Origin: Argopecten irradians
Lineage: Eukaryota > Mollusca > Bivalvia > Pectinida > Pectinidae
DNA length: 64,000 nucleotides
NCBI RefSeq assembly: GCF_041381155.1
Contig: NC_091147.1
Coordinates: 32,275,349 to 32,339,348, forward strand
Direction: 5' to 3'
The notes beneath the pieces are model-generated. The model made no database searches. It saw only the letters and a program-made list of their open reading frames with translations, and had not been told where the DNA came from. Made by a program: the position numbers and the translations under genes. Positions 10,879 to 60,457 of this stretch are shown here, in pieces (position 1 is the stretch's first letter; each line of letters opens with the position of its first letter).

Positions 10879-10942
10879 TCAGAGGTTTAAAATATCAGAT
10901 GACGCTCCTATCTTATGGTGATTGCACAAACGTCCAACACTT
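10879..10942 (-). CDS. Possible terminal RFX exon across the 50-bp array
   Basis: If exon 18638-18708 ends at CGACT|GTAGTT, the first acceptor beyond the array is GTATACAG (AG at 10943-10944). It would add one base plus 20 codons (SVGRLCNHHKIGASSDILNL), then TGA at 10879-10881. The phase fits and the array would then fill one intron exactly. The polypyrimidine tract is poor and the peptide matches nothing I know. The alternative is that the protein stops at the TAG at 18635-18637. Confidence 0.25.
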
Positions 10943-13900
10943 CTGTATACTTTTATCAGATATGTATGATGAAGATGGGTAATCCAAAGGGAGTTACCAC
11001 AGTCGAATGACGGCGTGGATGAAGATGTGTACTCCAAAGGGAGTTACCACAGACGAATGACGGCGTGGATGAAGATGGATGAAGATGTGTACTCCAAAGG
11101 GAGTTACTACAGACGAATGACGGCGTGGATGAAGATGTGTAATCCAAAGGGAGTTACCACAGACAAATGACGGCGTGGATGAAGATGTGTAATCCAAAGG
11201 GAGTTACCACAGTCGAATGACGGCGTGGATGAAGATGTGTACTCCAAAGGGAGTTACCACAGACGAATGACGGCGTGGATGAAGATGTGTACTCCTAAGG
11301 GAGATACTACAGACGAATGACGGCGTGGATGAAGATGTGTAATCCAAAGGGAGTTACTACAGACGAATGACGGCGTGGATGGATGAAGATGTGTAATCCA
11401 AAGGGAGTTTACTACAGACAAATGACGGCGTACACAGAGAAGATAAGATGTGTAATCCAAAGGGAGTTACTACAGACAAATGACGGCGTGGATGAAGATG
11501 TGTAATCCAAAGGGAGTTACCACAGACAAATGACGGCGTGGATGAAGATGTGTAATCCAAAGGGAGTTACTACAGACGAATGACGGCGTGGATGGATGAA
11601 GATGTGTAATCCAAAGGGAGTTACTACAGACGAATGACGGCGTGGATGAAGATGTGTAATCCAAAGGGAGTTACCACAGACAAATGACGGCGTGGATGAA
11701 GATGTGTAATCCAAAGGGAGTTACTACAGACGAATGACGGCGTGGATGGATGAAGATGTGTAATCCAAAGGGAGTTACTACAGACGAATGACGGCGTGGA
11801 TGAAGATGTGTAATCCAAAGGGAGTTACTACAGACAAATGACGGCGTGGATGGATGAAGATGTGTAATCCAAAGGGAGTTACTACAGACGAATGACGGCG
11901 TGGATGAAGATGTGTAATCCAAAGGGAGTTACTACAGACGAATGACGGCGTGGATGAAGATGTGTAATCCAAAGGGAGTTACCACAGACAAATGACGGCG
12001 TGGATGAATGAAGATGTGTAATCCAAAGGGAGTTACTACAGACAAATGACGGCGTGGATGAAGATGTGTAATCCAAAGGGAGTTACTACAGACGAATGAC
12101 GGCGTGGATGAAGATGTGTACTCCAAAGGGAGTTACTACAGACGAATGACGGCGTGGATGAAGATGTGTAATCCAAAGGGAGTTACCACAGACAAATGAC
12201 GGCGTGGATGAAGATGTGTACTCCAAAGGGAGTTACTACAGACAAATGACGGCGTGGATGAAGATGTGTAATCCAAAGGGAGTTACCACAGATGGGTAAT
12301 CCAAAGGGAGATGTTATCCAAGGATTACTACAGACGAATGACGGCGTGGATGAAGATGTGTAATCCAAAGGGAGTTACTACAGACGAATGACGGCGTGGA
12401 TGAAGATGTGTAATCCAAAGGGAGTTACCACAGACGAATGACGGCGTGGATGAAGATGTGTAATCCAAAGGGAGTTACCACAGACAAATGACGGCGTGGA
12501 TGAAGATGTGTAATCCAAAGGGAGTTACTACAGACAAATGACGGCGTGGATGAAGATGTGTAATCCAAAGGGAGTTACCACAGACAAATGACGGCGTGGA
12601 TGAAGATGTGTACTCCAAAGGGAGTTACTACAGACAAATGACGGCGTGGATGATGAAGATGTGTAATCCAAAGGGAGTTACTACAGACAAATGACGGCGT
12701 GGATGGATGAAGATGTGTAATCCAAAGGGAGTTACTACAGACGAATGACGGCGTGGATGGATGAAGATGTGTACTCCAAAGGGAGTTACTACAGACGAAT
12801 GACGGCGTGGATGAAGATGTGTAATCCAAAGGGAGTTACTACAGACAAATGACGGCGTGGATGGATGAAGATGTGTAATCCAAAGGGAGTTACTACAGAC
12901 AAATGACGGCGTGGATGAAGATGTGTAATCCAAAGGGAGTTACCACAGACGAATGACGGCGTGGATGAAGATGTGTAATCCAAAGGGAGTTACCACAGAC
13001 GAATGACGGCGTGGATGAAGATGTGTAATCCAAAGGGAGTTACCACAGACAAATGACGGCGTGGATGAAGATGTGTACTCCAAAGGGAGTTACTACAGAC
13101 AAATGACGGCGTGGATGAAGATGTGTACTCCAAAGGGAGTTACTACAGACGAATGACGCGTGGATGGATGAAGATGTGTACTCCAAAGGGAGTTACCACA
13201 GACGAATGACGGCGTGGATGAAGATGTGTAATCCAAAGGGAGTTACTACAGACGAATGACGGCGTGGATGACGGCGTGGATGAAGATGTGTACTCCAAAG
13301 GGAGTTACTACAGACAAATGACGGCGTGATGGATGAAGATGTGTAATCCAAAGGGAGTTACTACAGACGAATGACGGCGTGGTGGATGAAGATGTGTAAT
13401 CCAAAGGGAGTTACTACAGACGAATGACGGCGTGGATGGATGAAGATGTGTACTCCAAAGGGAGTTACTACAGACAAATGACGGCGTGGATGAAGATGTG
13501 TAATCCAAAGGGAGTTACTACAGACAAATGACGGCGTGGATGATGAAGATGTGTAATCCAAAGGGAGTTACTACAGACAAATGACGGCGTGTGGATGAAG
13601 ATGTGTAATCCAAAGGGAGTTACTACAGACGCGTGGATGAATGATGTGTAATGGATGAAGACAAATGAGGCGTGGTGAAGATGTGTACTCCAAAGGGAGT
13701 TACTACAGACAAATGACGGCGTGGATGAATGAAGATGTGTATCCAAAGGGAGTTACTACAGACGAATGACGGCGTGGATGAAGATGTGTAATCCAAAGGG
13801 AGTTACCACAGACAAATGACGGCGTGGATGAAGATGTGTAATCCAAAGGGAGTTACCACAGACAAATGACGGTGCGTGGATGAAGATGTGTAATCCAAAG

Positions 13901-59300: not shown

Positions 59301-60457
59301 GCTCCACCTCTAACGAATGATATTTATTTCACTATCATTCAAAAACATGAACAGACAAATCAGTATTTTTCGTCAGTTACAAAAGCTACTTACTTTACAC
59401 CATTCCCACTATTGAAGCTTCTTATTTTACTTTAAGATAAAATATCTAAAAATCATTAATTGAGTCCTAAAAAAATGCATGACACTATGCTCTATATGGA
59501 ATGAATTACTGATTACCAATTGCACCAAGAGCCCCTGAATGAGACATACCAAAGTCTATAAAAGTGGTAGATTCTACTCCTGCTTACTGCCTGGCATAAA
59601 GAGAATTGGATGACTGGTTCACCTGTTAGTATAATGTGACCGAGTAGGGTGTGTTGCTTGGTGTCTTCGGCGGCATGCTTCAGTGGATAGCACTATAAAA
59701 AGGGCAAAAGTTCCACTATACAAGAAGACACAACACGAACATACTGCAGTCTCCCAAAACACACCCGCACTTCATACATGCAACACACTACAGACATGGG
59801 AGGCCCTCCTTACATGACCCTGGTTGTTAATAGGATGTTAATATAGTCAAACAAACAAACAAACAAAATCAATGATGACTATCGTTTATGCTCTGTCAGT
59901 GATGGAGCATCTTTAATTCAATAATTGATCTGATGAAGTGATATTTCATTTTCTACTGTACATATATAAATTAAGCTATGTCAACGTTTTGTACTCTTGT
60001 AAAGCAATGAGACTATTTGTCAAGTAATTGTTGATCTCTAAAGCTCTATAGAATGGCCTTCTAACGTCATAAATCATCACTAAAATTTGGCTTGATAATT
60101 CTTGTCTCTGTTTCATCATAGGTCTCCAACTAAAGGTGGATAATCTATAATATTAAATTCAGAAAATCAACAACTCAGGGTCTGATGGCCAGTCTTATTT
60201 ATTATTTGATACATTTCTTTTTTACCATAACATGTCACTCTATAACTGTATATTGTCAGATATGCCTATGCCATAGGAGGACAGGACGGATCTGAGATTC
60301 TCACTACGGTTGAACGATATGATCCTCACACGAACGCCTGGACTCTTATAAACCCACTCAACAAAGCACTAAGATTCATGACCTCGATCTCCTACAAAGG
60401 AAAGCTGTATGTGTTTGGAGGGGAGACAACCAACAGTATAAGCAGCTCAGCTTATAA
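53333..60457 (+). CDS. BTB-BACK-Kelch protein gene (5' part; three exons in window)
   Basis: Exons 53333-54388 (ATG at 53356), 54930-55122 and 60260-60457 join in phase and give 474 residues plus a split codon. The protein continues beyond 64000. The order is an N-terminal tail (1-45), BTB (about 47-150), BACK (about 155-260), a linker, and the first Kelch blades. The family normally recruits substrates to CUL3 ubiquitin ligases, with BTB/BACK contacting CUL3 and Kelch the substrate. The PRKGM...MIIANP linker and first blades (IYLAGG, YAYAIGG, LYVFGG) remind me of KBTBD2/KBTBD8-type proteins, but orthology is open. Introns 2 and 3 hold the giant arrays I and J. Confidence 0.92.
53356..54388 (+). 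CDS. Kelch gene, start-codon exon: BTB and BACK domains
   Basis: The acceptor is TGTGGTGTACAG (AG at 53331-53332), the donor TACACCAG|GTAATA. ATG at 53356-53358 (GGCAATGG) is preferred; the open frame extends back into array H, but that part is repeat and intron. BTB features are EFVDVTLIVDGREFPCHKNV, then LAVSSPFFMAMFSTDMAES and YVYTGAV. BACK features are NCIGVYFFAKAHEC, FLSLPADKLVEIISDDD and EETVFEACMEWL. The frame stays open for 36 codons past the donor (to 54498), but those residues encode an intronic repeat rather than Kelch sequence. Confidence 0.93.
54396..54456 (+). repeat. 60-bp block shared with RFX minisatellite E
   Basis: CCTCGAAAATTTGACAATTT then TGTTTTGTCCACACGGTTGG then AATTACTTCCTTGTCCC in Kelch intron 1 is nearly identical, in reverse complement, to the blocks at about 35914-35975, 35455-35515 and 36285-36345 in the RFX gene. 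Confidence 0.85.
54930..55122 (+). CDS. Kelch gene exon 2: first Kelch blade
   Basis: Acceptor CAACTGTTGCCAG|GTTGTG, donor GTGGATGG|GTAAGTTT. The peptide (G)CAITGDNQIYLAGG, NNFYIYDQVDRSWQTKAKMH and MSRSQFGLTIVDG shows the double-glycine strand, the Y-x-x-x-x-x-x-W spacing and the next blade's opening typical of Kelch repeats. Its last 17 bases plus 11 intron bases are exactly the unit of minisatellite I. Confidence 0.93.
55106..59205. repeat. 28-bp minisatellite I, about 146 copies, across a Kelch gene donor
   Basis: The plus-strand unit is CTTACCATTGTGGATGG|GTAAGTTTGAC. The first 17 bases are the end of exon 2 (encoding LTIVDG) and the next 11 the intron start, so every copy is an intact 5' splice site with exon context. 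Subtypes with TAGATGG, TCGATGG and CCATGGTAG come in runs. Most units also contain GGTAAG-TTTGAC-CTTACC, a 6-bp stem; the first (genuine) copy has ACCAGAAC instead and lacks the downstream partner. Confidence 0.97.
59661..59868 (+). mobile_element. SINE with AAAC-repeat tail, in Kelch intron 2
   Basis: A degraded tRNA-like head (CATGCTTCAGTGGATAGCAC) is followed by a body with GACATGGGAGGCCCTCCTTA, CATGACCCTGGTTGTTAATA and a tail AACAAACAAACAAACAAA. The CCTTACATGACCCTGG segment is shared with the SINE at 22165-22381, indicating a common 3' domain on different tRNA heads. Confidence 0.7.
60260..60457 (+). CDS. Kelch gene exon 3: second Kelch blade and start of third
   Basis: Acceptor GTATATTGTCAG|ATATGC, donor GCTTATAA|GTAGGT. 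The peptide YAYAIGGQDGSEILTTVERY, DPHTNAWTLINPLN and GKLYVFGGETTNSISSSAY is classical Kelch (GG, VERYDP, W, then LYVFGG). It starts by completing a Gly codon and ends with two bases of the next codon. The following exons are outside the window. Confidence 0.94.

Follow-up and report, generated by a model that had tools for sequence, protein, structure and literature searches.

Minisatellites at the coding edges of neighboring RFX and kelch genes in the bay scallop Argopecten irradians

In the bay scallop Argopecten irradians, an RFX gene on the minus strand and a kelch gene on the plus strand form a divergent pair within a 64,000-nucleotide stretch of contig NC_091147.1 (RefSeq assembly GCF_041381155.1, positions 32,275,349 to 32,339,348; hereafter the window, with position 1 as its first base). 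Both genes are accompanied by large minisatellites, and at several of these arrays the repeat unit is a copy of the edge of the adjoining coding segment. The arrays are probably minisatellites of the mirage type known from amphioxus, formed by ordinary tandem duplication and expansion, with selection on the exons setting their limits. Unit content, exon positions, decoy splice sites and the local repeat background, which are given below, are direct observations on the window.

Repeat units that copy coding edges

The exons of both genes were fixed by exact translation to two proteins that are themselves database predictions. Thirteen RFX coding exons were recovered as a single GT-AG solution, and their translation is the 531-residue P0100 (RFX4-like, A. 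irradians) followed by a stop codon. Kelch exons 1 to 3, also with one GT-AG solution, give the first 475 of the 617 residues of P0001 (source name kelch-like protein diablo, Argopecten irradians) at 100% identity. Arrays were listed with Tandem Repeats Finder (TRF), while units and copy numbers were taken from cyclic alignment. The exon content of the units was assessed by an anchored test, in which exon bases in the unit were compared at the junction and null cases at least equal to the observed value were counted among 5000 (array H was excluded), and by an unanchored test of the exon side against 1000 shuffles, in which the array's own edge was also ranked among the 32 coding edges.

Exon-derived units are firm at two splice junctions, one an acceptor and the other a donor. 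Array E (33724 to 36742, minus strand) consists of 26 complete or partial copies of a 53-55-bp unit in four blocks split by inserts, and adjoins the acceptor of RFX exon 3 (33538 to 33723), an exon within the DNA-binding domain whose junction reads TATATATTACAG on the intron side and GGTTAGAG on the exon side. The unit comprises 17-19 bp of the acceptor side and 36 bp of exon 3, with the exon match extending to 39 bp, and 37 of these 39 exon bases are identical (anchored null 2/5000, unanchored shuffles 0/1000). Besides exon 3 itself, VREHFEYRPNTSV is found in 11 exact translated copies of the array. Array I (55123 to 59209, plus strand; TRF start at 55098, inside the exon) holds ~146 copies of a 28-bp unit at the donor of kelch exon 2 (54930 to 55122; GTGGATGG followed by GTAAGTTTGACC). 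Its unit is the last 25 bp of the exon plus GTA, with 23 of 25 exon bases identical (1/5000 and 0/1000).

The evidence for an exon-derived unit is weaker at the donor of RFX exon 8 (30113 to 30282, minus strand; AGG followed by GTAAGTGTACAT). Array C (25998 to 30112, minus strand) starts at this donor with ~130 copies of a 32-bp unit that contains CTCAGG/GTAAGT, where the slash marks the junction, and array B (25077 to 25977, minus strand; ~29 copies of a 30-bp unit) is a diverged version of it whose unit is nearer to the exon-8 end. The exon part of both units is short and significant solely when anchored at the junction: 9 of 11 exon bp match in B (anchored 6/5000, unanchored 61/1000) and 5 of 5 in C (14/5000 and 418/1000).

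A different kind of edge is copied by array A (10968 to 18634, minus strand), in which a 50-bp unit is repeated ~152 times starting at the RFX stop codon. The terminal coding exon 13 occupies 18635 to 18708 with its TAG at 18635 to 18637, and the unit consists of a copy of the final 25 bp of the coding sequence, stop codon included, and of 3′ flank. Of these 25 bp 19 match, and the register holds through the last base of the stop codon (anchored 2/5000, unanchored 10/1000). The array consensus translates as I-H-A-V-I-C-L-stop against I-H-D-V-L-R-L-stop in exon 13, and among the copies the first base of the C codon varies in 46% and the A of TAG in 30%. Only arrays A, B, E and I rank their own edge first of the 32 coding edges.

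Four further arrays lie at or near coding edges and carry no copy of the exon. Array D (31304 to 31758, minus strand; 51-bp unit, ~9 copies) runs from intron position +3 of the donor of RFX exon 6 (31761 to 31862; ATT followed by GTAAGTAATTCA) and is devoid of exon bases, as is array F (41587 to 45775, minus strand; 19-bp unit, ~221 copies), which starts 12 bp before the RFX start codon. The coding part of RFX exon 1 spans 41425 to 41575 with its ATG at 41575, and a putative acceptor is placed at 41580/41581. Array H (52948 to 53348, plus strand; 56-bp unit, ~7.6 copies) stops 7 bp short of the start codon of kelch exon 1 (53356 to 54388, encoding BTB-BACK); like that of F, its adjacent splice acceptor is only predicted, and both arrays lie just upstream of start codons. 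Array J (60512 to 64000, plus strand; 22-bp unit, ~155 copies) extends from 54 bp past the donor of kelch exon 3 (60260 to 60457; AA followed by GTAGGT) to the end of the window, and its unit is unrelated to that junction. The anchored test showed no exon copy in D, F and J (1375, 5000 and 1584 null cases per 5000), and the unanchored test no exon homology in D, F, H and J (977, 573, 906 and 476 per 1000).

In all, four array loci touch confirmed splice junctions (B and C counted as one, D, E and I), and three of the four have exon bases in their units. Units that span an exon-intron boundary with both exon and intron bases, as mirages do, are found in E, I and B/C (5-11 exon bases in the last case) and are absent from D, F, J and, its edge being a stop codon, A. 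The preliminary description of this window had reported large minisatellites at both genes, all of which were recovered. It had placed A, C, D, E, F, H and I at exon boundaries, which is correct as regards splice junctions for C, D, E and I, while A adjoins a stop codon and F and H flank start codons. Of the units it took to be boundary copies with exon bases, those of E and I are borne out and that of C less strongly, whereas H lacks exon homology; A, described there as a diverged junction case, does copy a coding edge, although what it copies there is the terminal exon's stop codon. Its statement that donors and acceptors are both involved, in two unrelated genes, holds for the arrays derived from exon edges.

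Two kinds of insert were seen by eye inside array E. One is an inverted repeat at 35161 to 35288 that makes a near-perfect foldback, and the array is thus apparently older than that insertion. A sequence of ~60-70 bp splits the array three times (35448 to 35515, 35913 to 35985 and 36266 to 36350) and recurs in inverted orientation in kelch intron 1 at ~54393 to 54451; judged from these occurrences, it is apparently a short dispersed element.

Decoy splice sites and the choice of the true site

The arrays surround true splice sites with close copies. Besides the true donor there are 158 GTRAGT donors in the B/C field and 122 in array I, and 20 extra acceptors lie upstream of the true one in array E, giving 300 decoys. 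Use of any of them would introduce a premature stop codon (158/158, 122/122 and 20/20). At the B/C and I donors, where GG at the end of the exon is followed by GTAAG of the intron, read-through meets GGG TAA immediately. The signals themselves are largely kept, GT being intact in 129 of 130 copies in C, 144 of 147 in I and 29 of 29 in B, and AG being unchanged among the copies of E.

In each case the database proteins of A. irradians, which are predicted protein models, bridge the arrays by using the exon-proximal sites, and orthologs from three other scallops, Mytilus, Pinctada, Haliotis and Ruditapes continue through the joined residues in a by-eye comparison of the proteins. These models suggest that the exon-proximal splice site is the one normally used. 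The minisatellite of IFI6 (6-16), which according to a passage of PMC4526556 (citing Turri 1995) also supplies repeated splice donors, is different in this respect: two of its downstream units serve as donors for isoforms, whereas no distal unit of B/C or I would act as donor for a coding isoform, given that all 122 and 158 decoy donors lead to a premature stop.

Founding traces and variation among copies

A trace of how array I may have been founded is retained at kelch exon 2, where the 6-bp direct repeat AGTTTG occurs at exon positions -25 to -20 and at intron positions +4 to +9, exactly one 28-bp unit apart, as founding by slippage or microhomology-mediated duplication would need. In array A the exon match of the unit starts with CATCCA, which unit and exon share. 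Single junction copies occur at two further edges: 14 bp of the kelch exon-1 donor junction are repeated exactly inside intron 1 (54550 to 54563, plus strand), and a diverged copy of the RFX exon-10 acceptor junction (21 of 24 bp) lies ~74-97 bp upstream of that acceptor (20777 to 20800, minus strand). Such single copies are the expected early state of array founding. Slippage driven by hairpins was considered and dropped, as none of 10 sequences folded clearly better than its shuffles (z -1.46 to 1.08).

In three of the seven arrays tested (A, B and I), neighboring copies resemble each other more than in any of 200 shuffled orders, by small margins. Polarity, with clean copies by the exon and degenerate ones farther off, is seen in J, F and I and not in A or C, and is reversed in D. 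The ends of J (62600 to 64000) and F (~44960 to 45800) far from the exon are degenerate, with ~11-16% and 9-11% indels per aligned base respectively, and these abrupt, indel-rich ends may be either old copies or unpolished long-read sequence. Their resemblance to unpolished reads (from ~62.6 kb onward in J) is the kind of feature expected if the arrays were assembly artefacts, an explanation that may be taken together with an origin of the arrays from transposons. Both are scarcely credible as a general account, since the arrays are mostly clean and neither process predicts units in E and I that equal the exon edge sequence.

Conservation among the copies is uneven. Counting substitutions together with deletions, GT has changed least of all dinucleotides in the 28 windows of array I (2 changes, the mean being 15.5), and GTAA least of the four-base stretches; in array C, GTAA is second lowest of 32 windows (1 change against a mean of 18.9). 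This could be read as selection for copies that still splice, the 122 and 158 extra donors serving as backups or as a sink for the U1 small nuclear ribonucleoprotein (snRNP), which would alter splicing or hold back premature polyadenylation within long introns. The pattern is incomplete: GT alone is not lowest in C, where 5 of 32 windows fall below it and substitutions are just as few in other stretches, full GTAAGT is unexceptional in I (4-8 of 28 windows lower, depending on the type of count), and in E the windows are tied and cannot be ranked. Moreover, any decoy that was used would bring a premature stop, so that single copies can hardly be selected. The idea of selection on splice-competent copies, raised in the preliminary description, survives as a hint from the donor core of I and C and no further, and we regard it as very unlikely.

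Are coding edges preferred sites?

The window had been chosen by eye in the preliminary description, and tests of position are read with this in mind. By distance only, 7 of 16 merged loci lie within 8 bp of an edge (P = 5e-11, with the predicted exon end 41580 beside F); this extreme excess was set aside because the test ignores unit length. With unit length included, and with 41580 assumed as the edge beside F and 1000 bp as the length of the intron of J that is cut by the window, units overlap an edge at 4 of 16 loci against 1.05 expected (P = 0.009) and at 3 of 8 intronic loci against 0.96 (P = 0.044). Counting overlap or abutment, the values are 7 of 16 against 1.22 (P = 8e-6) for all loci and 4 of 8 against 1.11 (P = 0.008) for intronic loci, and for units of at most 60 bp overlap occurs at 4 of 10 loci against 0.64 (P = 3e-4). 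The clustering of arrays at coding edges is therefore suggestive.

A second approach asked how often the non-coding DNA beside an edge contains a copy of that edge (score at least 22; 30 coding edges, the two start-codon edges being excluded). Self-copies were found at 6 of the 30 edges, namely those of E, B/C, A and I and the two edges with single copies, and when each edge was compared with other introns 5 of 30 fell below 0.01. Most of this excess is removed by a control with non-coding pseudo-edges, in which the 6 of 30 observed compare with 5.6 expected when arrays are reduced to three units and with 3.8 expected when each array is reduced to one unit (P = 0.18; P = 0.29, 0.18 and 0.26 at thresholds of 20, 22 and 28). 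Coding edges are thus struck roughly as often as non-coding positions in the background, which supports untargeted duplication.

These results bear on a process directed at junctions, as the preliminary description had proposed, in which R-loops, spliceosome-bound nascent RNA or U1-covered donors would provoke germ-line breaks at exon-intron junctions that are repaired with tandem duplications. Arrays at donors and acceptors alike, the strong though post hoc clustering of short-unit arrays, and the number of edges covered by array founder units would fit such a process. Against it, array A, one of the four edge-derived arrays, copies a stop codon where there is no junction, F and H, two of the three arrays that abut an edge without copying it, lie by start codons, self-copies next to edges are not clearly enriched, and the window was selected by eye. 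We consider a junction-directed process unlikely, and the data at hand do not establish special targeting of splice sites.

Chance alone, with random arrays in short ancestral introns and a striking window picked by its reader, is the opposite alternative. Three of five short-unit intronic arrays overlap junctions, for which P is 0.16-0.07 if ancestral introns of 200-300 bp are assumed, and the non-significant background control is likewise in keeping with chance. Four edge-derived and three edge-abutting short-unit arrays in ~48 kb would still be an unlikely outcome, longer assumed introns, closer to the mean of the species, lower P further (values below), and this account too seems improbable to us.

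Proposed origin of the arrays

The likely course of events is one of common duplication and growth of repeats, held in check at the exons by selection. A short tandem duplication spanning the edge of a coding segment, be it a donor, an acceptor or a stop codon, would arise by slippage between short direct repeats and would then expand into the non-coding DNA, reaching tens or hundreds of copies through slippage and unequal exchange. Purifying selection would fix the exon's own copy, and this is most simply why the arrays stop at coding edges, while splicing would stay normal through use of the exon-proximal site. No machinery aimed at splice junctions would be needed, as tandem duplications abound in the non-coding DNA of the window and some of them strike edges. 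Tandem repeats make up 21.7% of the assembly of a related scallop, Amusium pleuronectes, according to a passage of PMC10225492. A mixture of donor, acceptor and stop-codon edges is what should arise if the arrays have the coding edge, rather than splicing, in common. We infer both the slippage origin and the selective boundary of the arrays from these patterns.

Several observations weigh against this origin. Pure neutrality does not predict that the donor core is well kept in the copies of I and C, and random founding does not explain why F and H adjoin start-codon edges with no exon homology. Among units of at most 60 bp, 7 of 10 loci overlap an edge or lie within 8 bp of it against 0.77 expected (P = 5e-9), a subset defined post hoc. 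Founder units of arrays of any unit length cover 4 edges against 1.4 expected (P = 0.047), and those of short-unit arrays, again post hoc, cover 4 against 0.47-0.64 (P = 0.001 for 0.47). The argument from short ancestral introns is an assumption and a generous one, since the mean intron is 1,705 bp in the draft A. irradians annotation (as given in a passage of PMC7090048), and with assumed introns of 500-1000 bp the three overlaps among five arrays have P = 0.019-0.003 (0.003 at 1000 bp).

A bolder reading is that scallop coding edges, at splice sites as well as at start and stop codons, act as permanent seeds of giant minisatellites. Selection would keep both arms of the direct repeat, so that the duplication would re-form indefinitely, and the donor core would be kept because the arrays bind U1 snRNP. 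We think this unlikely to be so; if it were true, coding-edge arrays would be a main route of intron growth.

Other features of the genes and the window

Domains recognized by Pfam in the proteins of the window are RFX_DNA_binding, BCD_RFX, BTB, BACK and Kelch. For the RFX gene (18635 to 41575), the closest of the matches listed besides the A. irradians protein itself come from three other scallop genera at 59-64% identity, and the remaining nine of the 13 matches listed (limited by length and E-value) are 23-27% identical; on these identities, it seems to be a scallop RFX gene that evolves fast.

Upstream of the kelch gene, at 50745 to 51250, an 85-bp unit is repeated ~6 times and contains the acceptor-like TTTCTTCTTTTGTCAG, then 19 bp, then GTAAGT, so that each unit resembles a tiny exon flanked by both splice sites. 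A 155-bp family (GCGGTAACAAACTTTAACTATCAAAATCCAAGATGGC...) forms tandem blocks in introns and intergenic DNA at 21602 to 22790, 24601 to 24720, 39832 to 40753 and 46257 to 47160, two found by TRF and two by eye; it is probably a dispersed repeat whose core is tandem. As for a third gene, eight open reading frames (six at 3.6-9.7 kb and two at 39.4 and 49.8 kb) have no Pfam match above the cut-off, four of them having sub-threshold matches (E 0.09-0.16). The frame at 8882 to 9064, also without a Pfam match, contains the stretch VVSPLVALMEYQAESISKKG, which we take to be RecQ-helicase-like, and may belong to such a gene.

Relation to known systems and implications

The arrays had been thought to have no described counterpart, a view overturned by the mirages of amphioxus, which share their anatomy (PMC3087553, PMC3902484). 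In passages of PMC3087553, mirages are described in Adh3 and in the globin genes BflGb6 and BflGb9, to which those of PMC3902484 add TnC and PGBD5. They are, like the scallop arrays, minisatellite-like tandem duplications across exon-intron boundaries, with 5′ and 3′ boundaries both affected and many copies keeping AG/GT signals. For amphioxus, regular splicing is reported to be apparently undisturbed, and intron gain from mirages is proposed (PMC3087553). The Adh3 units, given there as 10-72 bp, are in the same size range as those of the scallop. The two haplotypes of BflGb6 carry 6 and 3 units of 150-160 bp, as compared with 26 to ~159 copies of 28-55 bp in the scallop, and the scallop set, unlike the amphioxus mirages, is in a mollusc and includes one stop-codon array.

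Two other systems are partly similar. Human gene-modifying internal tandem repeats, as a passage of PMC2812944 describes them, average 30-bp units and 4 copies and, as in the scallop, some overlap exon-intron boundaries; they differ in lying in recently duplicated primate genes and in giving rise to transcripts with altered exons or new introns. A route of intron gain has also been reported in which AGGT segments are duplicated in tandem; it shares with the scallop the duplication of splice-signal sequence, the difference being that new introns are created there whereas existing introns grew in the scallop. No boundary minisatellites of molluscs were found among the literature matches listed, which cover few subscription papers.

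With this window, minisatellites that span exon-intron boundaries, as in amphioxus, are recorded in a mollusc as well, and a version at a stop codon is added. Copy numbers are far above those of the globin case in amphioxus (6 and 3) and the human average (~4). The loci lend themselves to testing how the real splice site is chosen beside more than 100 near-identical decoys, and whether introns grow or are gained through tandem duplication at coding edges.

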